Assembly: GCF_000732535.1 (NCBI RefSeq)
Contig: NZ_APNK01000011.1
Location: 1 to 64,000, forward strand
DNA: 64,000 bases
Origin: Salinisphaera hydrothermalis C41B8
GTDB taxonomy: Bacteria; Pseudomonadota; Gammaproteobacteria; Nevskiales; Salinisphaeraceae
Direction: 5' to 3'
Below, in pieces: positions 2,504 through 13,408 of this stretch. The translations under genes and the position numbers were made by a program. The notes beneath the pieces were generated by a model that searched no databases, was not told the origin of the DNA, and saw only the letters and a list, made by a program, of their open reading frames with translations. Within the stretch, counting starts at the first letter, position 1; each line of letters opens with the position of its first letter.

Positions 2504-3538
2504 TCACCCCGCGTCGCCGAATACGCCACCACGGATCAGCGTAGCCATCACGAAATGCTGATTCTCGGTGCTTGGTACTTTGTCCTTGAGTAGCCAGTTG
2601 TCCAGCAGATTGTAGAAATCGGCTTTCTGCTTGGGCTGGCGATAGGCCGCGCCCTGGGTGGTCACGGATCCGTAGGGTTCGACCGCGATCGGTCCGAGAT
2701 CGATGCCGTCATCCGGGACGGGGTACCAGGTATCGATCGTGCGTAGGGCGTTGCCCAGCTTCTGCGAATGGATTGCGGCGTTGTCTTTTTCGCCGATGTA
2801 ATAGAGCGTCTTACTCTTGTCGCCGCGGGTACGCTCCAGAATGAGCTCTTGCGACGGAAAGACTTCCTGGCCGCCGCCGATACGCGCAAAGGCAACGACA
2901 TCGAGCAAGAGGTAATCGTCGCCTGCCAGGGCGGCAGCGATCACTTGGCCGAGTTCACGCGTTTCTTCATTGCCCTGAAAATCGCGCAGCGAATGCGCCA
3001 GGGCATTGAAGGTCCATTGTTTTTCGACTTGTCCCGCTTTGGTTTGCGAGACAACGATTTCGATCTCGTCGGCTTTGAGACGGTTGCGCCAGAGAAACCG
3101 CCCATTGGCGAGGTTGCAGGCATACCGGTGCGCCAGCTCGTCGAAACCGTGTTCGCTGACATAGCCGGCAACGGTTTGTTTGAGCTTAGCTTGATAGTCG
3201 GCGTTGTTGCAGGCCGAAGGGATGCCGGCACCGGCGAGTACGCGCAGGGTGAAGTGCACGGCCAGCGTGTCGGCGTCGTGGGGAAGGGCGGCGACGTCGA
3301 CGGTTTGCAGGTTCGGGTTTTCGATGGCGGCGTCGAGTTTGGCCGGGTCCTGATCCTTGGCTTTGAGGCGATTGGAAATGGTGCCGCGTACGGATTTCTC
3401 GCGTACCGGTACACCTGGCCATTGCGCATATTGATTGCGGTCGGCCCAATTGCCGGCACTGAAAAGCGCGTCGGAAGGGTCGAGCTTGCGTTCGAAGGCG
3501 AGTACGGAAGCGGTCTTGAGGGCGTCGTTTTTGGCCAT
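2504..3538 (-). CDS. csy3: Cas7f (Csy3), backbone subunit of the type I-F Cascade
   Basis: This 344-residue protein is the repeated backbone subunit that coats the spacer part of the crRNA; six copies form the filament in the usual 60-nt complex, each covering 6 nt of guide. The N-terminus ([19 protein letters not shown]) and the [17 protein letters not shown] block near residues 29-45 are typical of the family, and length matches it (about 340). The start is supported by a GGAGA ribosome-binding sequence about 9 bp upstream, in the 29-bp gap after csy2. Subunit periodicity matters here because the mini-CRISPR at 6210-6291 has a guide exactly one Cas7f step (6 nt) shorter than usual. Confidence 0.95.
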
Positions 3539-3567: not shown

Positions 3568-4554
3568 TCAGTCGAAGTCGTAGAGCGATTCGAACGGGTC
3601 GGCGACAGGTCGGTAGTCGTTGCAGCAGCGGTAAAGGCCGTCCTCGGGCCGCGTTCGGGGGTACCAGATCAGCTGTTCGGCCTGTTCCAGACGGTGGGGG
3701 CTAATCCATTCGCCCATCGAATACAGGCTTTCGACGAAACGGAACGGGGTGTCGGGATCGCGCGCGTTGGTTATGTCCCCGCCGGGGTGGATGTCACCGA
3801 GTGCTCCGTAGCCCACAGGGATGGGCACGGCCCACCCGAGGCCGTGACGATCGTGTTGCCATTCAGCGTTGTCGGCGTGGTAGCGCCAGTTGATCCGCGA
3901 CAGCGAAAGCCAGGCATCCAGGCGCGTGGCCTGTTTATCTTCAGCGGTCAGCGCTTCGTGGCGTTGTGCGATCAAATCGTCGCGGGATACCAAGGTGAAA
4001 CCGGGCACCAGACGCAGCCGAAGTTTGCGAAATGCATCGAGTCGATCCGTTTCGTTGCCGGTCAAGTCGACGACTTGTGGCTGATAGCGCGGTAATCGCG
4101 GATGGTCTGGGGGCACCACCGAGCCGCCCGCGATGCGCATGGCATCGACCATAGGCTTGATTGTGTGGATATCGTCTTGCTGTGCCTGTGGATCGCGCTG
4201 CCAACGGTCGCTTTCCAGCGCAAGAATCAGGCTGACTTCGATATGAATACGGCCTTCCTCGACGATCGCGGCGGTGCTTCCGTCCTTAGCGGCCGGGTTC
4301 CGCGTGAGGTGAAAGGCTTTGATGAAGCCGCCTTCGGTTGCCTGTTCTTGATGTTGGTGGCAGACCACGCCGATACCTTTGAAGGCGATATCGAGGTCTG
4401 CCGTTAGAGTTTTGCGTTCCAGTGCCCACATAAAGCCGGTAAACGCCGTCATCGACGGAAAACCATGGGTCAGCGGGCTGGAAATCGCATTGGCGTTTTG
4501 GATATGCAGCCGGGGCAGCACGAGCAGATGTGTGAAATTCGGTCCGTGGCTCAT
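3568..4554 (-). CDS. csy2: Cas5f (Csy2), 5'-handle-binding subunit of the type I-F Cascade
   Basis: This 328-residue protein caps the 5' handle of crRNA together with Csy1. The sequence begins [20 protein letters not shown], the Csy2 N-terminus that opens the RAMP fold, and continues with [14 protein letters not shown]. An in-frame extension upstream exists but lies wholly inside csy1 and is not conserved-looking. The chosen ATG overlaps the csy1 stop as ATGA, implying translational coupling. The family is normally about 320-330 residues. It belongs to the csy1-csy2-csy3-cas6f operon. Confidence 0.94.
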
Positions 4555-5918
4555 GAGCGGTCCTCCGCGGCGCGCCGTTGCATGGGAACCGGCCAGGCGG
4601 CTTCGACAATGGCCTGTCGTGCCCAATGGCGATATTCAATATCGCCGACCGACGTTATGCCGGCATGGCGCAGTCGGTCGTTGAGCCAATTGGCAAAAAT
4701 ACCCGCGACTTGATCCGGCCAATCGCCCCAGTGGTAGGCCTGTTCGAAGGCGCGATCATCCTCGCCGCCTTCGCCCAGCAGCCGCGCGTCCAAGGTGAGA
4801 CGGTCGGGATCAAGCCAGAGCTGTTCGCACAGCGGCAATTCGCAGGCGGGATCGCGCGTCCAGCCGGGTGACAGTTGATCGCGAATCGTGGCGGCAAACA
4901 GGGGCAGTTGCGCGCCCAACGCCTTTTCAAGCTCTTCGCGCTTCTGTCGGGTTTCCAGTGTCTTTTTCGGATCCGAGCGGAGTAGTCGGCCGAGGCTGCG
5001 AACCAGGCCTCGAACGCCTTCGAAGTAGAAGAATCGGCCGGTCGAAGATTCTCGTCCCAGCAGGGTTGTGGCGCGCATTAGCGACCATGTCGGGGGAAGG
5101 GAGGCGAGTAGATAATTGGTGCCACCGCGTTCGCTGGTCAGCTGCGAAATGTTCTGAGGCTTGGTGCCACCCATCTTGCGAACAGCCAGTTGGCGATAGT
5201 CTTGATAGATCCCGTCATGCGGTTTTTTAGACCGTTTGGCCTGTCGGCCCGCCTTATTTTCTTCCCCAAACCGGGCGGCCTGAATATCCGCATGCACCCG
5301 ATGGGCGAGGGCGCTGGAAAACAACGGCTGTAGCAGGTGGAAGTTGTGGTTATCGTCGGGACGGCCGTCGACGAGCCAATAGACCTGTTTGGCCAGGGCA
5401 TGCGAGCTGGGCGTGCCGCTGCGCACGAGATTGCCGAAGGCCTGCATTCGTCGATGCGCGATGTCTTCGTCTGTATGCAGCGCCTGCTTGAGATCCGTGT
5501 CGTCCTGTTTGACCCAGTCCAGCAGCGACCGGCCATCGACTTCGACTTTGAGGAACTTGAATACATCCAGGGCGGCCGCGTTGCCGACGACATCTTCGGT
5601 AAATTCGTTGCCCAGCGAATGGCTGCCGATTTCGTCACGCAGCGGCAAGTCGGTGGGCGGAATATAAAGACTGGAACCGCGTGCATCGGGGTGGCTGGCC
5701 TTGAGCACGTGGGTGACGGCCTGAATCTGGCTCACGCGGTGAGCCGCGCTGGCCAGCCAGGTTTCGTATTCGTATTTCGCGGCAGCCGCCGCATCATCCT
5801 CTCGACCCTTGAGCTTAGCCACACGGCGCGCGTTTATGAAGTCTGCAATCGCTTCGCGAAAGCGCTCGCTTCGAGCGGCCGTCCCGGTTTGATTATCGGT
5901 TGTATCGGGCATAGGCAT
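4551..5918 (-). CDS. csy1: Cas8f (Csy1), large subunit of the type I-F Cascade
   Basis: This 455-residue protein is the type I-F large subunit. With Csy2 it binds the crRNA 5' handle and, by family knowledge, reads the CC protospacer-adjacent motif. Position (first gene of the csy operon), size (family about 430-450) and segments such as FINARRVAKLKGREDD and LFSSALAHRVHADIQ support the call. A second ATG at 5912 has a GGA 6 bp before it and may be the real start. Upstream lies a roughly 210-nt leader holding a hairpin and a 9-codon ORF, then the predicted promoter at 6138-6166, which overlaps the site matched by the mini-CRISPR guide. Confidence 0.94.
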   Translation of the reverse strand: MPMPDTTDNQTGTAARSERFREAIADFINARRVAKLKGREDDAAAAAKYEYETWLASAAHRVSQIQAVTHVLKASHPDARGSSLYIPPTDLPLRDEIGSHSLGNEFTEDVVGNAAALDVFKFLKVEVDGRSLLDWVKQDDTDLKQALHTDEDIAHRRMQAFGNLVRSGTPSSHALAKQVYWLVDGRPDDNHNFHLLQPLFSSALAHRVHADIQAARFGEENKAGRQAKRSKKPHDGIYQDYRQLAVRKMGGTKPQNISQLTSERGGTNYLLASLPPTWSLMRATTLLGRESSTGRFFYFEGVRGLVRSLGRLLRSDPKKTLETRQKREELEKALGAQLPLFAATIRDQLSPGWTRDPACELPLCEQLWLDPDRLTLDARLLGEGGEDDRAFEQAYHWGDWPDQVAGIFANWLNDRLRHAGITSVGDIEYRHWARQAIVEAAWPVPMQRRAAEDRS

Positions 5919-6014: not shown

Positions 6015-6044
6015 TTAGCCGGATCTTCTGCGACGGTCTTTCAC
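6015..6044 (-). CDS. Possible 9-codon leader ORF upstream of csy1
   Basis: On the minus strand a strong Shine-Dalgarno sequence (AGGAGGAC, complement of 6051-6058) is followed about 7 bp later by GTG and an ORF encoding MKDRRRRSG, ending in TAA at 6015. It lies in the predicted csy leader, about 100 bp before csy1. The RBS is better than that of csy1 itself, which is why it is listed. The Arg run could stall ribosomes if codons are limiting, but this is only inference. It could equally be chance. Confidence 0.25.
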   Translation of the reverse strand: MKDRRRRSG

Positions 6045-6137
6045 GTCTTTGTCCTCCTGCGATTTATCGTGCGGAGCCGGTGCTAATCGGCGGTTGTCAG
6101 GCCTCAGCCGCGCTGCAACGTGGCTGGGGCCGATTTG

Positions 6138-6166
6138 AGTATTTCCTAAAAACTTGTTCGAAGCAA
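6138..6166 (-). promoter_or_regulatory. Predicted sigma-70 promoter of the csy operon
   Basis: On the minus strand TTGCTT (6166-6161) and AATACT (6143-6138) are separated by 17 bp. They match 3/6 and 4/6 of the consensus -35 and -10 boxes. The -35 box lies 1 bp from the CC motif (6168-6169) that flanks the site matched by the mini-CRISPR guide. Cascade bound there would cover the region just upstream of the -35 box. The start point would be near 6131, giving a leader of about 210 nt. The boxes are assigned by eye. Confidence 0.5.
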
Positions 6167-6167
6167 G

Positions 6168-6205
6168 CCATTGCGCGAGCGTTTTGAGCTACCATTGATC
6201 GAGCT
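6168..6205 (+). promoter_or_regulatory. Two CC-flanked target sites of the mini-CRISPR guide
   Basis: Site 1: CC at 6168-6169 is followed by ATTGCGCGAGC from 6170. Compared with the guide from 6238, 18 of the first 23 positions match, and the mismatches are at 6, 12, 14, 18 and 22. Site 2: CC at 6192-6193 is followed by ATTGATCGAGC from 6194; 13 of the first 17 positions match, with mismatches at 5, 6, 12 and 14. CC is the PAM of characterised type I-F systems. The guide copy itself is preceded by AAA of the repeat, so it would not be self-targeted. Site 1 abuts the predicted csy -35 box. Site 2 lies just upstream of the mini-array and may control its own promoter. Confidence 0.8.
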
Positions 6206-6209
6206 TGTT

Positions 6210-6291
6210 GAACGCTGCCGCGCAGGCAGCTCAGAAAATTGCCCGAGCCTATTGGGCTGCTCTTTTTTCTGCCGTATAGGCAGCTTCGAAT
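6210..6291 (+). ncRNA. CreR/CreA-like mini-CRISPR RNA (degenerate repeat - guide - degenerate repeat)
   Basis: The first pseudo-repeat (6210-6237) differs from the array repeat at 3 of 28 positions and keeps the hairpin GCTGCC-GCGCA-GGCAGC and the handle CTCAGAAA. The guide is 26 nt (6238-6263). The second pseudo-repeat (6264-6291) matches at 20 of 28 positions and keeps CTGCC-GTATA-GGCAG, enough for Cas6f. Processing would give an RNA of about 54 nt (6230-6283). It is read on the plus strand, opposite to all cas genes. The guide matches PAM-flanked sites at the csy promoter. This is the architecture of CRISPR-derived regulatory RNAs (CreA of CreTA; CreR for cas autorepression), which bind promoters with limited pairing and do not trigger cleavage. 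Assignment rests on sequence logic only. Confidence 0.85.
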
Positions 6292-6388: not shown

Positions 6389-6583
6389 ATGCCGAAATTT
6401 CTGGATCCCCGCGTTAGCGAGTTCGAGACCGAAGCCGAGGCGGAAAGCCACGACCGCTGGCTGCGCGAACAGGTTCGGCGCGGGCTAGCGGACGACAGGC
6501 CGCCGGTCCCGCACGACGAGGTGATGGCCCAGATCGAGGCCGTGATCGACCAAGCCGAGCAGCGACGTACCCAAAAAGACTGA
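6389..6583 (+). CDS. PaaA/stability-determinant-like antitoxin
   Basis: This 64-residue acidic protein (MPKFLDPRVSEFETEAEAES) has a helical Arg/Glu-rich core (DRWLREQVRRGLADDRP) and a VPHDEVMAQIEAVI segment. It resembles small antitoxins of the stability-determinant/PaaA type that pair with ParE/RelE toxins. The chosen ATG has AGGAG 7 bp upstream; longer in-frame extensions would run through the mini-CRISPR hairpins and were rejected. Its stop overlaps the toxin start by one base (TGATG). It is encoded opposite to the surrounding cas genes, just downstream of the mini-CRISPR, so it may share a promoter with it or be governed by Cascade. Confidence 0.8.
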   Translation: MPKFLDPRVSEFETEAEAESHDRWLREQVRRGLADDRPPVPHDEVMAQIEAVIDQAEQRRTQKD

Positions 6584-6858
6584 TGCTGCCGGTCGTCTGG
6601 CGTGAAACCGCCCGCAGGCAGCTCGCCGAGATTGTTGCCTTTATCGCTGAAGACAATCCCCCGGCTGCGCGCCGGCTCAAGGAACGCATCGAGGCGGTGG
6701 TCGTGCCGTTGGCACAGTACCCCTATCTTTACCCGCGCGGTCGCGTCGCCGGCACGCGCGAATTGGTCGCGCATCCCAATTATCTGATCGTCTACAAGGT
6801 GGCGGCAGAACGCGTGGAAATCGTCGCGGTGTTGCACGCCCGCCGGCAATACCCCTGA
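6583..6858 (+). CDS. RelE/ParE-family toxin
   Basis: This 91-residue protein begins LPVVWRETARRQLAEIVAFI and contains YPRGRVAGTRELVAHPNYLI followed by YKV...VEIVAVLHARRQYP. These are the conserved blocks of the ParE/RelE fold (N-terminal helical hairpin, then the strand core ending in H-A-R-R-Q). ParE members poison gyrase and RelE members cut mRNA; the sequence alone does not say which applies. It is translationally coupled to the antitoxin and converges on cas2-3, whose stop lies 41 bp away. A toxin inside a cas locus may punish loss of Cascade if its expression is Cascade-controlled, but the antitoxin gene argues for a conventional type II pair. Confidence 0.88.
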   Translation: MLPVVWRETARRQLAEIVAFIAEDNPPAARRLKERIEAVVVPLAQYPYLYPRGRVAGTRELVAHPNYLIVYKVAAERVEIVAVLHARRQYP

Positions 6859-6899: not shown

Positions 6900-9800
6900 T
6901 CACCCGCGCCATGCCGAAAATCCGAGCCAGGGATGATAACGCCAGCCCTGCGCGTTTTCCGGCGCTTCCAACTGGCCGAAACGGCATGCCGCTTCGTGTA
7001 GCGTCAAGTCTTGCTCCTCGGCCTGTGCCGCGAGCAGGGCATCGAGATCGAACTGGCCCCAGGGCGCAACGCGCGGGCCCAGTTCTAGCGCGACGTGATG
7101 GCGTTGGCTGTCTTCGACACGAACGTAAAGACTTTTTCCACGCCGGGACGGGTCGGCCTCGACACGGTGCAGACAGAGCGTGTCCGATTCGTCATCGTCG
7201 GGCAGTAGTACGAGTTGTGCCGTTCGCATCGTGTTCTCGCGAAATGGTTGTTGTTGTGCGAGCACTCCGGTCAGCAGAGATTGGGGGTATTGCCAGCCGC
7301 TGGCGGCATTCAATCGGCATGTGTGCTCAGCTAACACGGGCTGCATGGTATCGGCCATGCGCGCATGTTCGAGATCGACCAGGCGTGTCTTGGCTTGGCG
7401 TTCGGCGGCCGGTGGCGCTGCAATCCGCGGCAAGGCATCGATGGCTTGGTATTCGTCGGCGCGCATGAGCTTGCCGAGTCGGTGTGCCACCAATCGGAAC
7501 GGATGGCTCGCTGCAACGCGGGGTTGCTCGAAGCCCGGCCGGATAAAGATGGCCGCCGGTTTGCCGTCCGGGCCGCTGTGGCCATCGAAATGCCGAAGAT
7601 TAGTATCGAAGATCAATATGTTCGGGCGGCCGTTCGGCTGTCGCCGATGCCGTTGAACGCGGCCCGCGAGCTGAATCAATGCGCGCATCGAGGACGGCTC
7701 CGCGATCGCCCAATCGGCATCCCAATCACGCCCAACCTCGCAGACTGGCGAGGCGAGCACGATGAATAGATGATGTGTGGCCGGGCTCTGCTCGAGCGCG
7801 TTGCAAATATCCGGGGATTGGAAAACCGCGTTTTCATCGCGGCGGTTCAAGGCCGTGTCGAGCTTCTGTTCGATGGCCGCGCGCTGCACGAGCGGGAAAC
7901 GGGCGTGGTAGACACACAGATGCAACTGCGTGTCCTCGGGTGCACCGAGTTCGAACAGTGTTTTGGCTACATCGAAGAGTGGATCGATATTCGCCATACG
8001 CAACAGCCCGAAGCTGACGCGTTTGTGGCTGCCCGGCACTAGCTTTGCGTGATCGTGATGCAGCTGGAGCGCAGCTTGACGCACCTGCTGCGCAAATGCC
8101 GCTCGTGTCTGTTCGCGTTTTTGTGCGCGTGCAATGTCGAGCGGCCATAGCTTGCCGAGGCGTAAAGCTGGGCTTTGCTCGAGTTTGGCAACGCGGCGTT
8201 GAACGAAATCGGCATGCGCGGCGGCGAACTTGGCCGGCTGGCCGCAGTCCCGATGTTGCACGCCGAACTCATCGACCCACAGACACGGTATGTCGGCGAG
8301 CGCGGCATGGGGGCCATCCGCGCCGCGGTTGCGCTGGTATTCGCGCCGCCCGGCTTGATAGGCGAGAAACATGCCTTCGACCAGATCGGGCGGCAATGTC
8401 GCCGACGACAGCACCACGCGCGTGCCGAGCATGCCGGCCCACTGCACCAGCCGGGTGAGGGCGGGCAGGTCGTCGAGGTCATAATCGTCGAGTTCATCGA
8501 GCACGAGATCGCTGCTCATCAAGCGCAGCATGGGGGCGATCTGGCGCCCGCCACGCAGGGATTCCGTGGCCGGCACTAGATGATCCACGGTACAGACCAG
8601 CATCGGCGCGGCGAGCAGGCTTTTCGTTTTCGGATCGTGCCGAGTCCAGGCCAGCAGCGAGCGCTGGTCGTCGGTGCCTTCGAACAATACGTGATCGTCT
8701 TCAGCGATCAGATGTTGAACCGAAGCCGAGCCCGTTTCTTCGGCCAGTCGCTCGTAATAGGCAAATAGCGCACGGCTGGCGCTGCCGCCCACCCGTATCG
8801 CCAGTTCGTTGTCGCTTAGATGTAGATCTTTGCGATAGCTACGCCCGGTTTGTTGGGTCAGTGCACGCAACCCGAGCGCGAACGTGGCCCGCAAGCCCTG
8901 TTGCGGATCAGCCAAGGCATAAAGCAGCCGGGCGTTGGCCAATGTCTTGCCACAACCGGTCGAGGCCATGTTGACGATAAAAGCGCCGTGGCGCGCGGCG
9001 CGCTCTCGCAGCCCGACCGCCGTATCGAATGCCGTGTCCTGCCACTGAAACTTGCCTTTGCCGCTACGTTTACGCAGGCCGCGATGCCGACCGATGCGTG
9101 CGAGATCGCGCTCGAGTGTCGGCAGGACATGAGCGATTTGCCCGGCGTGATGCGTTACCCCGAGCAGGTGCTCATCGAGGCTTTGGTTGGCCACAATGCG
9201 CCCGGCGCGATTGCGTGTCGTATTTGCGGTCAACTTGCACGCGCGCTGCACGAAGGCGCGCCGCGCCGGTACCGGTCGGTCGCTATCGTCCAGGCCGAGG
9301 CTCGAATAATAGTGATCGGCCAGCATCAGGCTCAGCCGGGCCAGATGCAGCACGAACGGATTATCATGCCATTCGTCACGTCGCTTGCGCTTGAGTTCGA
9401 GCAGGCGACGGGCGAGCCGGGCAGCTTTCTTGCGCCACGCCTGGCTGGCTACCGGTAAACGGCCCGCCAGCTGCCAGTACGGTGCGATCTCCTTTTCCTC
9501 GCCGGGAGACAGGCGCTCATTCCACGTGTGAGCTAGGGCGTCGAGCGGCGCATCAAGCCAGTCGGGATTGAATGATTTCGCTCGTGCGCCCAAACGCACT
9601 TGTTGCCCATGGTCGTCCGTGACCGGCGCGACCGGCAGTCGGTGGTGGGATACGATCAGCCAGGCCAATGCCTTCGCCAGTGGCGGCAAGCCACGGAACG
9701 GGCAAGGATCGCTCGCATCCCAACCATCACGCTGAAACGCCGGCGTGCGTGTCCAGGCCGCCAGGTCGTGTGTTTCGGCGTCGAGCAGTCGCGTGAGCCA

Positions 9801-10301
9801 GGCCTCGTCGTCATCATCGCCGACGAATGCTAGAAACAGCCGTAGTGACACCCATTCATGACGAAAGCGATTTCGCTCGGTAAGGCGGCCGTCCAGACGT
9901 TGCTTGAACGCAATAGTGGCCTTGCCCAGGTCATGCAGCAGGCCGGCCATCATCGCGAGCAGGGTGATGTCTTCGCCGCTGTGCCAGTTGTTTTCGTCCT
10001 CGGCGCGTAGCACATCGCGCTGCGTGGTATGCGTTGGCGTGGCCCCGCGATCGTTAAACCGTGCCGCGTTCCCGACCACCCAGAGCAATTCGCTGTGATT
10101 GGCGCCGCGTATCCAGTGACACGCGACGGCCGTATTCTTGCGCGCGCTCTTGCGCAGCATCTTGCGCAGGGTGTCGAGCCCGGCCTTGGTGATCGGCGTT
10201 TGCCAGGTCCGGTCGCCACGGCGTTCGGCGAACTGATCCAGGATGCGACGCGTCTCCTTGAGTGCATTCTTGTTGCACTGTGAGACGAACAGGACATTCA
10301 T
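6900..10301 (-). CDS. cas3: Cas2-3 fusion: adaptation subunit plus helicase-nuclease
   Basis: This 1133-residue protein is the type I-F Cas2-Cas3 fusion. Residues 1-90 (MNVLFVSQCNKNALKETRRI) are the Cas2 domain, which joins Cas1 for spacer integration. The HD nuclease motif is His123-Asp124 (GLLHDLGKA). The SF2 helicase shows Walker A at about 447-453 (STGCGKT), the DELD box at 602-605 and SSAT at 632-635. It cuts and unwinds DNA bound by the Csy complex. The start overlaps the cas1 stop as ATGA; longer upstream extensions lie inside cas1. All visible catalytic motifs are intact, so the locus should be interference-competent. Confidence 0.96.
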   Translation of the reverse strand: MNVLFVSQCNKNALKETRRILDQFAERRGDRTWQTPITKAGLDTLRKMLRKSARKNTAVACHWIRGANHSELLWVVGNAARFNDRGATPTHTTQRDVLRAEDENNWHSGEDITLLAMMAGLLHDLGKATIAFKQRLDGRLTERNRFRHEWVSLRLFLAFVGDDDDEAWLTRLLDAETHDLAAWTRTPAFQRDGWDASDPCPFRGLPPLAKALAWLIVSHHRLPVAPVTDDHGQQVRLGARAKSFNPDWLDAPLDALAHTWNERLSPGEEKEIAPYWQLAGRLPVASQAWRKKAARLARRLLELKRKRRDEWHDNPFVLHLARLSLMLADHYYSSLGLDDSDRPVPARRAFVQRACKLTANTTRNRAGRIVANQSLDEHLLGVTHHAGQIAHVLPTLERDLARIGRHRGLRKRSGKGKFQWQDTAFDTAVGLRERAARHGAFIVNMASTGCGKTLANARLLYALADPQQGLRATFALGLRALTQQTGRSYRKDLHLSDNELAIRVGGSASRALFAYYERLAEETGSASVQHLIAEDDHVLFEGTDDQRSLLAWTRHDPKTKSLLAAPMLVCTVDHLVPATESLRGGRQIAPMLRLMSSDLVLDELDDYDLDDLPALTRLVQWAGMLGTRVVLSSATLPPDLVEGMFLAYQAGRREYQRNRGADGPHAALADIPCLWVDEFGVQHRDCGQPAKFAAAHADFVQRRVAKLEQSPALRLGKLWPLDIARAQKREQTRAAFAQQVRQAALQLHHDHAKLVPGSHKRVSFGLLRMANIDPLFDVAKTLFELGAPEDTQLHLCVYHARFPLVQRAAIEQKLDTALNRRDENAVFQSPDICNALEQSPATHHLFIVLASPVCEVGRDWDADWAIAEPSSMRALIQLAGRVQRHRRQPNGRPNILIFDTNLRHFDGHSGPDGKPAAIFIRPGFEQPRVAASHPFRLVAHRLGKLMRADEYQAIDALPRIAAPPAAERQAKTRLVDLEHARMADTMQPVLAEHTCRLNAASGWQYPQSLLTGVLAQQQPFRENTMRTAQLVLLPDDDESDTLCLHRVEADPSRRGKSLYVRVEDSQRHHVALELGPRVAPWGQFDLDALLAAQAEEQDLTLHEAACRFGQLEAPENAQGWRYHPWLGFSAWRG

Positions 10302-11281
10302 GCGGAAGCGGCGCGTCGTGCCAGATTGTCCGCCACGCGTTTGACGGTATCGATCATGCCGTCCAGCGCTTCGACCTGCGCGAGGCGTTCGATGCAGGCC
10401 TGACGAAACTCCTGTTCTTCGTCCCCACGTACCGCCGAAATGAACGCCTGCGGCAGAATGACGCCGTCCTTGATCAAATCCGCGACATCGAACACCAGAC
10501 CGCCGCGGCGTGTTTTGCCGTGCAAAACAGCCAGACCATGCGGCAGGCCCAGTACCCAGCAACAGGTGGCGCCCAGCCCGTAAGCGAGATAGTTGCCATG
10601 GTCGAGGAACCGATTCGCGGGATCGGTGCCGCTGCCGCGTTTGGCGCGGGTGAACTCGCCGTAGTCAGTGGCGTCGACCGCGAGCTTGAACAGTGTTTTC
10701 GTCAGCCGCGCTTCGAGCGTGAGCAGTTCGTTGGTGTTCTGCGCCGCATCAATGGCGACATCATTACGGGCGACGGCATCCTGCAGCCGCTTTAAATCGC
10801 AGCGAAACCCCGCGTCGCGTAGGCTGCGTTCATCGGCCCAGAGGGTCGAGATCGTCTGCAGGCGTTGTTTTTGGAAGGCTTGCGCCGCGGCAAGACGCAA
10901 ATCGTCTTCGAACCAGAATCGAACCCACTGTTGCAGGTATTCGGTGGGCCGATATTCGCTTTGCGGGGCGAGCCAGGCCACTTCGACATCGACCTCGGTT
11001 GCAGCAAACAGCGGTGTACCGCCCCCGCCGCAGAACCCGACAAGCACGCCGGCCTTGGCCAGCTCACGCATTGCGGCCTGCGTGATGGATGTGCCGGTGC
11101 CGAGCAGAATCGAGGTGGTATTGGCGATCGGGATATTCCAATACTTGGACTCGCGCCCTTCGTCCGTGACATAGGACACGCGGCCGCCTTTAACCAACAC
11201 GCGACAGTACTGAAGGTAATACAGGTTCGCGCGCTTGGAATGCAGGATCGTCTTGAGATCGCTCGGCGCGAGATCTTCCAT
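10298..11281 (-). CDS. cas1: Cas1 integrase (type I-F)
   Basis: This 327-residue protein integrates new spacers as a complex with Cas2-3. Metal-binding residues are all present: Glu190 (LLTLEARL), His254 (LHGKTRRGG), Asp265 and Asp268 (FDVADL), at the numbering of the P. aeruginosa enzyme. The N-terminal beta domain (LYYLQYCRVLVKGG) and the glycine-rich FCGGGG turn near 83-88 are conserved. It is the first gene of a cas1-cas2-3 unit with a predicted promoter about 30 bp upstream of its start, separate from the csy promoter. The mini-CRISPR target motif was not found near this promoter, so adaptation genes may escape its control. Confidence 0.96.
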   Translation of the reverse strand: MEDLAPSDLKTILHSKRANLYYLQYCRVLVKGGRVSYVTDEGRESKYWNIPIANTTSILLGTGTSITQAAMRELAKAGVLVGFCGGGGTPLFAATEVDVEVAWLAPQSEYRPTEYLQQWVRFWFEDDLRLAAAQAFQKQRLQTISTLWADERSLRDAGFRCDLKRLQDAVARNDVAIDAAQNTNELLTLEARLTKTLFKLAVDATDYGEFTRAKRGSGTDPANRFLDHGNYLAYGLGATCCWVLGLPHGLAVLHGKTRRGGLVFDVADLIKDGVILPQAFISAVRGDEEQEFRQACIERLAQVEALDGMIDTVKRVADNLARRAASA

Positions 11282-11520: not shown

Positions 11521-13408
11521 TCTGTGAGCTGTCTAGGTGGCAGCGAACAATCAATTTGCTCGTGAACGCTTTCAGGATGATTTCTGAGCTGCCTATGCGG
11601 CAGCGAACGCAGCGGCGAAGCCGCGAGCACTTGGAGCACTTTTCTGAGCTGCCTATGCGGCAGCGAACCCCAACGCCCCGCCGCAGCCGAGCCGGGATTG
11701 TTTCTGAGCTGCCTATGCGGCAGCGAACTCGCGATCCCTCCATGAACGAAACGCCGTCCATTTCTGAGCTGCCTACGCGGCAGCGAACGTTGCGGAGCGC
11801 CGAGAACAAGAACAAAACAATTTCTGAGCTGCCTACGCGGCAGCGAACGCGTCGAGTACTTCCGGGGCATATGGCTCGGCTTTCTGAGCTGCCTACGCGG
11901 CAGCGAACGCCGATAGGAAAATTTTGTTTTTACCCGTCTCTTTCTGAGCTGCCTACGCGGCAGCGAACTGGCTAGCGGCCTGTGCCTCGGGGCTATGCGG
12001 TTTCTGAGCTGCCTACGCGGCAGCGAACGCGTAATTCCGGGGTTGTTTCGCGGCATGCGTTTTCTGAGCTGCCTACGCGGCAGCGAACTCGGGTATTCCG
12101 CGAACGCAGCCGCCTTGTTCGTTTCTGAGCTGCCTACGCGGCAGCGAACCCCCCGGCCCAAACCGCGCGATTTTTCCATCGTTTCTGAGCTGCCTACGCG
12201 GCAGCGAACTTGAACTGTTTCACGCAGGTTTTCGGATCGAATTTTTGAGCTGCCTACGCGGCAGCGAACCCGGCAATGAACGCGACTTCATAGAGTCGTT
12301 CTTTCTGAGCTGCCTACGCGGCAGCGAACGTGCTGGTATTGCTGGCTGTGTTTTTTGCGGTTTTCTGAGCTGCCTACGCGGCAGCGAACGGGTACCAGTG
12401 GCCCTGGCTGCAGCGGCACAGTTTCTGAGCTGCCTACGCGGCAGCGAACCGAGTTCAGGCGTGCGAGATTTCAGTTTCATGTTTCTGAGCTGCCTACGCG
12501 GCAGCGAACAATGAGTTCCGGCAGGGTGAGATCGACGCGCTTTTCTGAGCTGCCTACGCGGCAGCGAACAGGATTGGAGATAAACGGACAACTCGGAGTC
12601 ATTTCTGAGCTGCCTACGCGGCAGCGAACTCGCTGGCCATGGCTACGCCACCCCGCCAGCTTTCTGAGCTGCCTACGCGGCAGCGAACGTCGTCGGTTCC
12701 CGCTTTCGCGCGGATATCGTTTTCTGAGCTGCCTACGCGGCAGCGAACAAACGAAATACGCCGGACGGCTTGCCCAGCCGTTTCTGAGCTGCCTACGCGG
12801 CAGCGAACTGGGGTTTGAACTGTTGCCGTGCCCGTTCTGTTTTCTGAGCTGCCTACGCGGCAGCGAACACAAACGCACCGTCTCAGGCTCGGTCCCGCCC
12901 TTTCTGAGCTGCCTACGCGGCAGCGAACCGCATCGATCGCTTCGGAACGTAACCCGCATATTTCTGAGCTGCCTACGCGGCAGCGAACGCACCAGAGCGC
13001 CCAGCGGGCCAGGCATTTACTTTCTGAGCTGCCTACGCGGCAGCGAACGTTGCGTTGTATTTGGCGCCGCCGCTGAATTTTTTCTGAGCTGCCTACGCGG
13101 CAGCGAACATGTTGAACCCAGTCGCGTGCGCCGCATTCGGTTTCTGAGCTGCCTACGCGGCAGCGAACGCCAGCGCTACGCGGCCAATGAGGCGCACGTT
13201 TTTCTGAGCTGCCTACGCGGCAGCGAACATCGGGATTTCAAGCGTCGTGCCGGCCGTGATTTTCTGAGCTGCCTACGCGGCAGCGAACATGCGTGACGTT
13301 GAAGCGCCGCGTCTTTTCACTTTCTGAGCTGCCTACGCGGCAGCGAACCCAGCGCCGCGCCCATGATGGCCGCGTTCATCTTTCTGAGCTGCCTACGCGG
13401 CAGCGAAC
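11521..13408 (-). CRISPR. Type I-F CRISPR array 2 (32 repeats, 31 spacers)
   Basis: Repeats start at 11521 and recur about every 60 bp to 13381, with the same 28-bp consensus as array 1. The leftmost copy (11521-11548) has five substitutions and the next three carry TATGCGG instead of TACGCGG, marking the old trailer end. A single substitution is present at 12242 (TTTTTGAG). Spacers are 32 nt except one of 33 nt (12089-12121) and one of 31 nt (12630-12660). The leader is on the right, so transcription is leftward, towards cas1. The two arrays flank the cas genes, as in P. aeruginosa type I-F loci. Confidence 0.98.

Follow-up and report, generated by a model that had tools for sequence, protein, structure and literature searches.

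CRISPR-regulated RNA toxin-antitoxin (CreTA) modules are known from the cas3-csy1 gap of Acinetobacter type I-F loci, where a psiR1-psiS-psiR2 creA unit with a CC PAM is accompanied by a divergent, SD-led mini-ORF (PMC10097628). In the CreT of WCHA45, a hairpin stem (pairs 1-15 to 4-12, 7-nt loop) includes the start codon (PMC10097628). The Haloarcula CreT toxin needs a strong SD, an efficient start codon, tandem AGA, and a stem-loop (PMC8501985), and loss of the promoter in the Haloarcula creTA gap cut cas8 transcripts by 91% (PMC9458426). Two further kinds of system, CreR and CrePA, are described in PMC12737573. Statements on all of these systems follow excerpts of the papers cited. The locus analyzed here lies in the same cas3-csy1 gap as the Acinetobacter modules.

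The window, which is the whole 64-kb stretch of DNA analyzed, holds a complete type I-F locus. All cas genes are on the minus strand and were assigned using Pfam: cas1 (10298-11281; Cas_Cas1), cas2-3 (6900-10301; Cas3_I-F_Cas2, Cas3-like_C_2, and others), csy1 (cas8f, 4551-5918; Cas_Csy1, E 7e-128), csy2 (cas5f, 3568-4557; Cas_Csy2), csy3 (cas7f, 2504-3538; Cas_Csy3), and csy4 (cas6f, 1931-2500; Cas_Csy4), the predicted processor of CreA. Two CRISPR arrays with 30 and 27 exact repeats are present; the window begins within the first, and the end repeat of the second (11521-11547) is degenerate and trailer-end-like. The plus strand of the cas2-3/csy1 gap carries a two-repeat mini-CRISPR (6210-6291) and, 3' of it and codirectional, a PaaA2-like antitoxin gene (6389-6583; PaaA2, E 2e-12) followed by a ParE toxin gene (6583-6858; ParE_toxin, E 1.4e-18).

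The mini-CRISPR, which an earlier note on this DNA had described as degenerate and opposed to the cas genes, was recovered as such. psiR1 (6210-6237, plus strand) is identical to the array repeat at 25 of 28 positions and has an intact Csy4-type stem (CTGCC/GGCAG) and the 5' handle CTCAGAAA at 6230-6237. psiR2 (6264-6291, plus strand) is more degenerate (20/28), with its stem intact. Both match Rfam CRISPR-DR4 on the plus strand, at 26.5 bits for psiR1 (6215-6237) and 25.7 bits for psiR2, scores that do not reach the gathering score of 35. The guide (psiS, 6238-6263, plus strand) starts directly 3' of psiR1 and is 26 nt long, compared with 31-33 nt for the array spacers. Based on Csy4 cleavage, mature CreA is presumably about 54 nt (6230-6283). 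The guide itself contains a hairpin with a T-run that resembles a terminator (6241-6269, plus strand), where transcription could stop 5' of psiR2 and yield CreA without a 3' handle.

Guide-site scores were calculated with positions 6, 12, and 18 omitted, giving a maximum of 18 positions. The main CreA target site (6170-6192, plus strand; PAM CC at 6168-6169) scored 17/18 and ranked first among the window's 10,095 CC-flanked sites, counted on both strands, and in 2,000 shuffles of the intergenic region, none reached 17/18 and one reached 15. The CC plus seed of this site occurs a single time in the 4.28-Mb genome. The 18 matches among 23 bases given in the earlier note for a guide from 6238 were found again, as were the mismatches at positions 6, 12, and 18, to which positions 14 and 22 are added here, and the AAA, not CC, that precedes the guide copy in creA. 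A second, tandem site (CC at 6192-6193, site from 6194; 6192-6210, plus strand), overlooked in that note, scored 14/18, ranked second among the same 10,095 sites, and lies 24 nt beyond the first; the third-best site in the gap scored only 9/18. Since the spacing is presumably smaller than one Cascade footprint, the tandem sites may serve as alternatives, not jointly.

The PAM of the main site is positioned 1 nt upstream of the -35 box of a predicted leftward creT promoter (6166-6138, minus strand), which consists of TTGCTT (6166-6161), a 17-nt spacer, and AATACT (6143-6138). The earlier note had the site abut the -35 box of csy1. Its adjacency to a predicted leftward -35 holds, but csy1 is about 250 nt away, a distance that the note did not take into account, and the promoter is a weak match that the consensus promoter scan of the window did not report. 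Downstream of this promoter, creT is predicted as a structured RNA from its fold and covariation (6131-5952, minus strand), with a 5' stem-loop at 6131-6100 and a 3' stem-loop at 5980-5961 followed by GGGATTCTA. Folded from 6145 to 5952, the RNA had a z-score of -3.30, and 0 of 200 shuffles folded as well. In an alignment of 19 CreT stretches, including that of the window and taken from 30 prepared, 84.8% of cells were paired compared with 66.0% after shuffling (0/500), and 13 of the 18 pairs, in the 5' and 3' stem-loops, show changes on both sides. A canonical terminator 3' of CreT was considered and rejected, as the scan called none at 5980-5952 and no U-run follows the stem-loop; the conserved 3' stem-loop with ATTCTA is only terminator-like.

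Within creT, the SD AGGAGG (6058-6053) stands 8 nt before a mini-ORF of nine codons at 6044-6015 (GTG AAA GAC CGT CGC AGA AGA TCC GGC TAA; SD and ORF together 6015-6058, minus strand), which was likewise missing from the earlier note. Of the 61 sense codons, AGA is used least (7 of 13,926 codons in 33 long ORFs of the window), and the genome has a single tRNA-Arg(UCU) gene (46 tRNA matches checked with ARAGORN, 45 confirmed). The start-codon hairpin pairs 1-15, 2-14, 3-13, and 4-12 can form in this ORF; the hairpin is absent from the minimum-free-energy fold of the window creT RNA.

The locus is, with good confidence from its sequence, a type I-F CreTA module. It has a crRNA-like creA unit with degenerate repeats in a cas locus, a psiS that partly matches a PAM-flanked site at a predicted promoter and covaries with that site in relatives (below), a putative small toxin gene with a strong SD, mini-ORF, rare-codon pair, and stem-loop, and a rare cognate tRNA. 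CreA would be transcribed rightwards from 6210-6291 and cut by Csy4 to a crRNA-like guide, which would be taken up by the Csy complex (Csy1-4). With its guide, this complex is predicted to bind at 6170-6192, next to the CC PAM, and perhaps also at the tandem site (6194), beside the leftward promoter, and thereby to block creT transcription by promoter occlusion. Pairing limited to positions 1-5, 7-11, and 13-17 would hold the complex in place without cutting by Cas2-3. If Cascade were lost or inhibited, CreT would be made, its strong ribosome-binding site would drive translation of the nine-codon ORF with two AGA codons, and translation would stall through trapped tRNA-Arg(UCU); the start-codon hairpin may contribute to toxicity. 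The cell would thus be addicted to its own Csy complex. The sequence shows the module parts, guide-site pairing, covariation, rare codons, and RNA fold, and transcription, processing, repression, toxicity, and tRNA trapping are the predicted steps. Given a CreTA module, trapping of tRNA-Arg(UCU) is somewhat favored, with a hairpin/ribosome mechanism as the main alternative. The tRNA step is the least certain because the CreT of WCHA45, the only homologous system studied, kills via the hairpin and start codon and not via rare codons (excerpts of PMC10097628).

For comparison, csy1 was detected in three overlapping genome sets: in 22 of the 194 related genomes, in 16 of the 85 from the order, and in 32 of the 369 from the class. 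Scanning named genomes contributed another 80 loci, the best of 372 relatives, and the locus set is biased. A total of 125 loci were examined; the gap was measurable in 118, and removal of four duplicates left 114 distinct loci. The cas3-csy1 gap was at least 150 nt in 69 of these (L076 and L077 are identical but under the 150-nt cut). The loci from named genomes include that of Salinisphaera japonica, which belongs to the genus of the window and has a csy1 83% identical to that of the window. A repeat-like element (at least 17/28) was present in 55 of the 69 long-gap loci, and in 41 of the 55, the guide scored at least 13/18 against its own site, compared with 37 of 3,740 pairings of guides with the sites of other loci, many of them between close relatives. 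The covariation of guide and site that the earlier note had proposed to look for is therefore present. Four loci at 12/18 (L010, L018, L033, and L067) were retained by inspection and L097, also at 12, was not, giving 45 modules in 36 guide groups; because several modules are close relatives, the module counts are not independent.

Across the 45 modules, guide and site matched in 43-45 at positions 1-5, in 39-44 at positions 7-11, and in 32-43 at positions 13-17, compared with 10 at position 6, 6 at position 12, 9 at position 18, and 12-21 beyond position 18. As positions 6, 12, and 18 were unscored, this pattern is independent support for Cascade-type pairing, and the mismatches noticed earlier in the window recur at the same positions. 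L008 and L009 have four guide differences (positions 11, 15, 16, and 20), mirrored identically in their sites. Pairing in the psiR1 stems is kept in 212 of 215 cells, and compensatory changes occur (L069 and L093 omitted because of an offset). Tandem sites were counted where another CC site lay no more than 70 nt away and agreed with the guide at 8 or more of the 10 seed positions. They were found in 9 of 45 modules, including that of the window, compared with 3 of 1,940 with foreign guides; the observed spacing was 18-24 nt. On the other strand of the gaps, no guide-site score exceeded 11/18, and the best matches were antisense to csy1. Of the 24 loci in which the strict rule detected no module, 8 (L047, L054, L081, L087, L092, L096, L097, and L117) yielded candidates in a loosened search; these were obtained without a shuffle control and are outside all counts.

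The site lies at least 190 nt from csy1 in 35 of the 45 modules, leaving room for CreT; the 190-nt cut was chosen after the distances were seen. TTGAC occurs within 0-4 nt of the PAM in 15 of the 35 (control rate, 0.006), the window not being among them. An SD-led mini-ORF was found using a blind rule in 29 of the 35 modules compared with 9.1 expected from shuffles, and one with an SD of at least 6 nt in 20 of the 35 compared with 0.6 expected. Two adjacent codons among the seven rarest were present in 17 of the 29 blind-chosen ORFs (2.2 expected), two of which (L053 and L069) are off the conserved place. In a hand-picked set of 32 mini-ORFs, a pair made up of AGA, AGG, TTA, TCA, or ATA codons occurs in 24, one such codon in 4, and none in 4; the pairs comprise nine AGA-AGA, two TTA-TTA, two TCA-TCA, and a mixed remainder, and in L038 and L050, AGG is not rare. 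The pairs of L045, L053, L060, and L064 use a GTG two bases downstream of the blind-chosen start. The CreT ORFs of these four loci carry TCA-TCA or TTA-TTA doublets, for which the trapped species would be predicted to be tRNA-Ser(UGA) or tRNA-Leu(UAA). For the start-codon hairpin, 76 of 100 pairs form at 25 distinct blind-chosen starts compared with 64.0 +/- 2.6 after shuffling, and all four pairs form at 12 of the 25 starts compared with 4.4. No CreT ORF was found in some distant modules (L114, L124, and L084). In all 28 loci where the motif of the CreT 3' stem-loop was found, csy1 starts 5-55 nt after it.

In the other 10 modules (L010, L027, L058, L063, L072, L095, L098, L101, L112, and L122), the distance from site to csy1 is -2 to 135 nt, and no CreT ORF emerged under the blind rule, for which three of these loci were too short. 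These ten are candidate CreR-type autorepressors, and both kinds of module may occur at the cas3-csy1 position. Six of the ten also carry a protein toxin-antitoxin gene. The csy1 of L025 (Modicisalibacter coralii) and L026 (Halomonas salinarum) is 72-74% identical to that of the window, with a nearly identical CreT ORF, and the csy1 of four genomes of the same genus as the window (G001, G009, G011, and G012) is just 45-46% identical. Because csy1 is closer in L025 and L026 than in these four genomes, the whole locus has likely been transferred horizontally among halophiles.

Protein toxin-antitoxin genes recur beside creA. Of the 34 distinct loci whose gap is 450 nt or longer, 26 have at least one Pfam toxin-antitoxin component on the creA strand, so that the combination with a protein toxin-antitoxin pair, regarded in the earlier note as new, is common at this position. 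At least eight kinds of component occur (PaaA2/ParE, FitA/PIN, Phd-YefM/PIN, nucleotidyltransferase/HepT, HigB and HTH_3, MqsRA, BrnTA, and DUF6088); L095 and L102 were counted on an HTH_3 match alone and L008, L089, and L093 on a nucleotidyltransferase domain alone. Ten sense-strand gap ORFs had no Pfam match in a scan covering part of the sense ORFs. The strict rule gave a module in 17 of the 26 loci. The genes lie on the cas3-creA side in L002, L008, L010, L027, L036, L037, L050, L058, L064, L081, L091, L098, and others. Their recurrence suggests that the cas3-csy1 gap is a stabilizing hotspot.

Several other explanations of the locus were weighed. A decaying mini-CRISPR whose match is due to chance or is a remnant of acquisition would account for the degenerate repeats and for a guide shorter than the array spacers, but it is contradicted by the guide-site covariation and position-specific conservation in 45 modules and by stems kept through compensatory changes, and it was rejected as scarcely credible. 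Pure autoregulation, in which a CreA-guided Csy complex represses csy1-4 behind a 250-nt leader without a toxin, corresponds to the complete autorepression circuit with csy1 as the regulated gene put forward in the earlier note. The site does face a leftward promoter in front of csy1, the short stretch between the CreT 3' stem-loop and csy1 leaves little space for another promoter, and the ten near-site modules have this form. The window, however, is among the other 35, and the features that lie between its site and csy1 (SD, AGA-AGA mini-ORF, stem-loops, and a covarying fold) would be unneeded in a plain leader; CreR is also generally not toxin-coupled according to the excerpts of PMC12737573. 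With a CreT-like gene in between, autoregulation alone was dropped as the primary reading and is considered very unlikely. CreA-Cascade might instead control the protein toxin-antitoxin pair through a shared creA-paaA2-parE transcript, in the manner of CrePA. The toxin-antitoxin genes in the 26 long gaps are 3' of creA in the same direction, and the site is located where a creA promoter would be. Against this, the gap has no further good CreA site, and none at the promoter of the pair; the guide contains the terminator-like hairpin and its T-run; nine of the 26 loci have no module by the strict rule; and the CrePA toxins are KilA-N proteins in the excerpts of PMC12737573, whereas Pfam names PaaA2 and ParE here. 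Such control is improbable, and CrePA was rejected as the class of this locus.

Two further alternatives were considered. One overlaps the CreTA reading: the creT promoter would also drive csy1-4 by read-through, and CreT would be the leader of the csy mRNA. The short gap to csy1 fits this, as do the lack of a U-run and of a called terminator after the window stem-loop and the orientation of the PaaA2-ParE genes, which oppose read-through from cas3 to csy1; a strong promoter for downstream cas genes is reported in the Haloarcula creTA gap (excerpts of PMC9458426). On the other hand, csy1 could be read through from cas1-cas2-3, and the conserved stem-loop with ATTCTA may be a genuine terminator. 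This dual role is a real possibility, although held with clearly less than even confidence. As 5-55 nt leaves little space for a separate csy1 promoter, autorepression of csy1 may be a by-product of CreTA through read-through. The other alternative concerns toxicity of the WCHA45 kind, in which the ribosome would be poisoned by a hairpin whose stem contains the start codon, and the rare codons would be incidental. The same pairs are possible in the window ORF and enriched across the 25 starts, and the toxicity of WCHA45 depends on exactly those pairs (excerpts of PMC10097628). However, the rare pairs recur far beyond chance and switch among AGA, TTA, TCA, and ATA, which is hard to explain by RNA contact, and the hairpin is not in the window fold; toxicity of the WCHA45 kind is considered less likely than not. 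Further points weigh against the CreTA reading itself: the window promoter is weak and escaped the consensus scan, although relatives have TTGAC, and the CreA site of WCHA45 is downstream of the creT start site, whereas that of the window is upstream of the -35 box (excerpts of PMC10097628).

Under the CreTA reading, a broader proposal is offered tentatively, as less likely than not. It holds that the modules form one widespread I-F CreTA class in which the toxin would be a structured leader RNA of the csy operon; that a single promoter, often with two tandem CreA sites, would make the toxin together with its silencer, the Csy complex; that the payload would be a codon pair exchangeable among the rarest codons of the host (AGA, AGG, UUA, UCA, and AUA), so that tRNA trapping would involve more than AGA and AUA, the codons already known for it; and that the site would recurrently recruit a protein toxin-antitoxin pair by creA. 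If this is true, the circuit combines addiction and autoregulation in one, and a merged toxin leader and cas operon, if real, would link two circuits now described separately. If the payload codons track the host's rarest codons, CreT would be a natural, programmable probe of limiting tRNAs. CreTA explains the persistence of costly CRISPR systems, and few modules are known because their RNAs share little sequence. The position rule used here (cas3-csy1 gap, CC site, 5-1-5-1-5 pairing, and SD with rare-codon pair) recovers dozens of I-F modules and makes the toxin prediction testable.

Searches of the main texts of open-licence papers found none on a rare-codon CreT in type I-F and none on protein toxin-antitoxin genes beside creA. 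As far as these searches go, the rare-codon pairs of I-F CreT, including TTA and TCA, the tandem CreA sites, and the recurrent protein toxin-antitoxin neighbors appear to be new. Of the described systems, CreR resembles the window in that a guide RNA directs a Cas effector to a promoter in the cas locus, but in the excerpts of PMC12737573, the cas promoter is targeted and there is no toxin gene, whereas the window has a CreT-like gene in between. CrePA shares a CreA-type antitoxin and differs in its KilA-N protein toxin, of which the window has none (excerpts of PMC12737573). Haloarcula CreTA has, like the window, a strong SD, an efficient start, tandem rare codons (AGA-AGA or AUA-AUA), a stem-loop, and a partial-match CreA guide at the creT promoter; it belongs to an archaeal I-B system with a TTC PAM near cas6 rather than to a bacterial I-F system, its AGA-AGA directly follows the start codon instead of occupying codons 6-7, and relatives of the window also use UUA and UCA pairs (excerpts of PMC8501985). 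The closest match is the CreTA of Acinetobacter (WCHA45, LoGeW2-3, and ANC3789), with the same gap, the psiR1-psiS-psiR2 unit, the CC PAM, an SD with a mini-ORF, mismatches that include spacer positions 6 and 18, and a start-codon hairpin geometry that is possible in the window. In the excerpts of PMC10097628, its toxicity is independent of rare codons, its ORF is 33 bp, and its target is downstream of the creT start, whereas the window has AGA-AGA, a target upstream of the -35 box, another site in tandem, and a ParE-type gene pair next to creA. CreTA, also at the cas3-csy1 position in type I-F, is already known, and the window adds a member with a putative toxin of the rare-codon kind.
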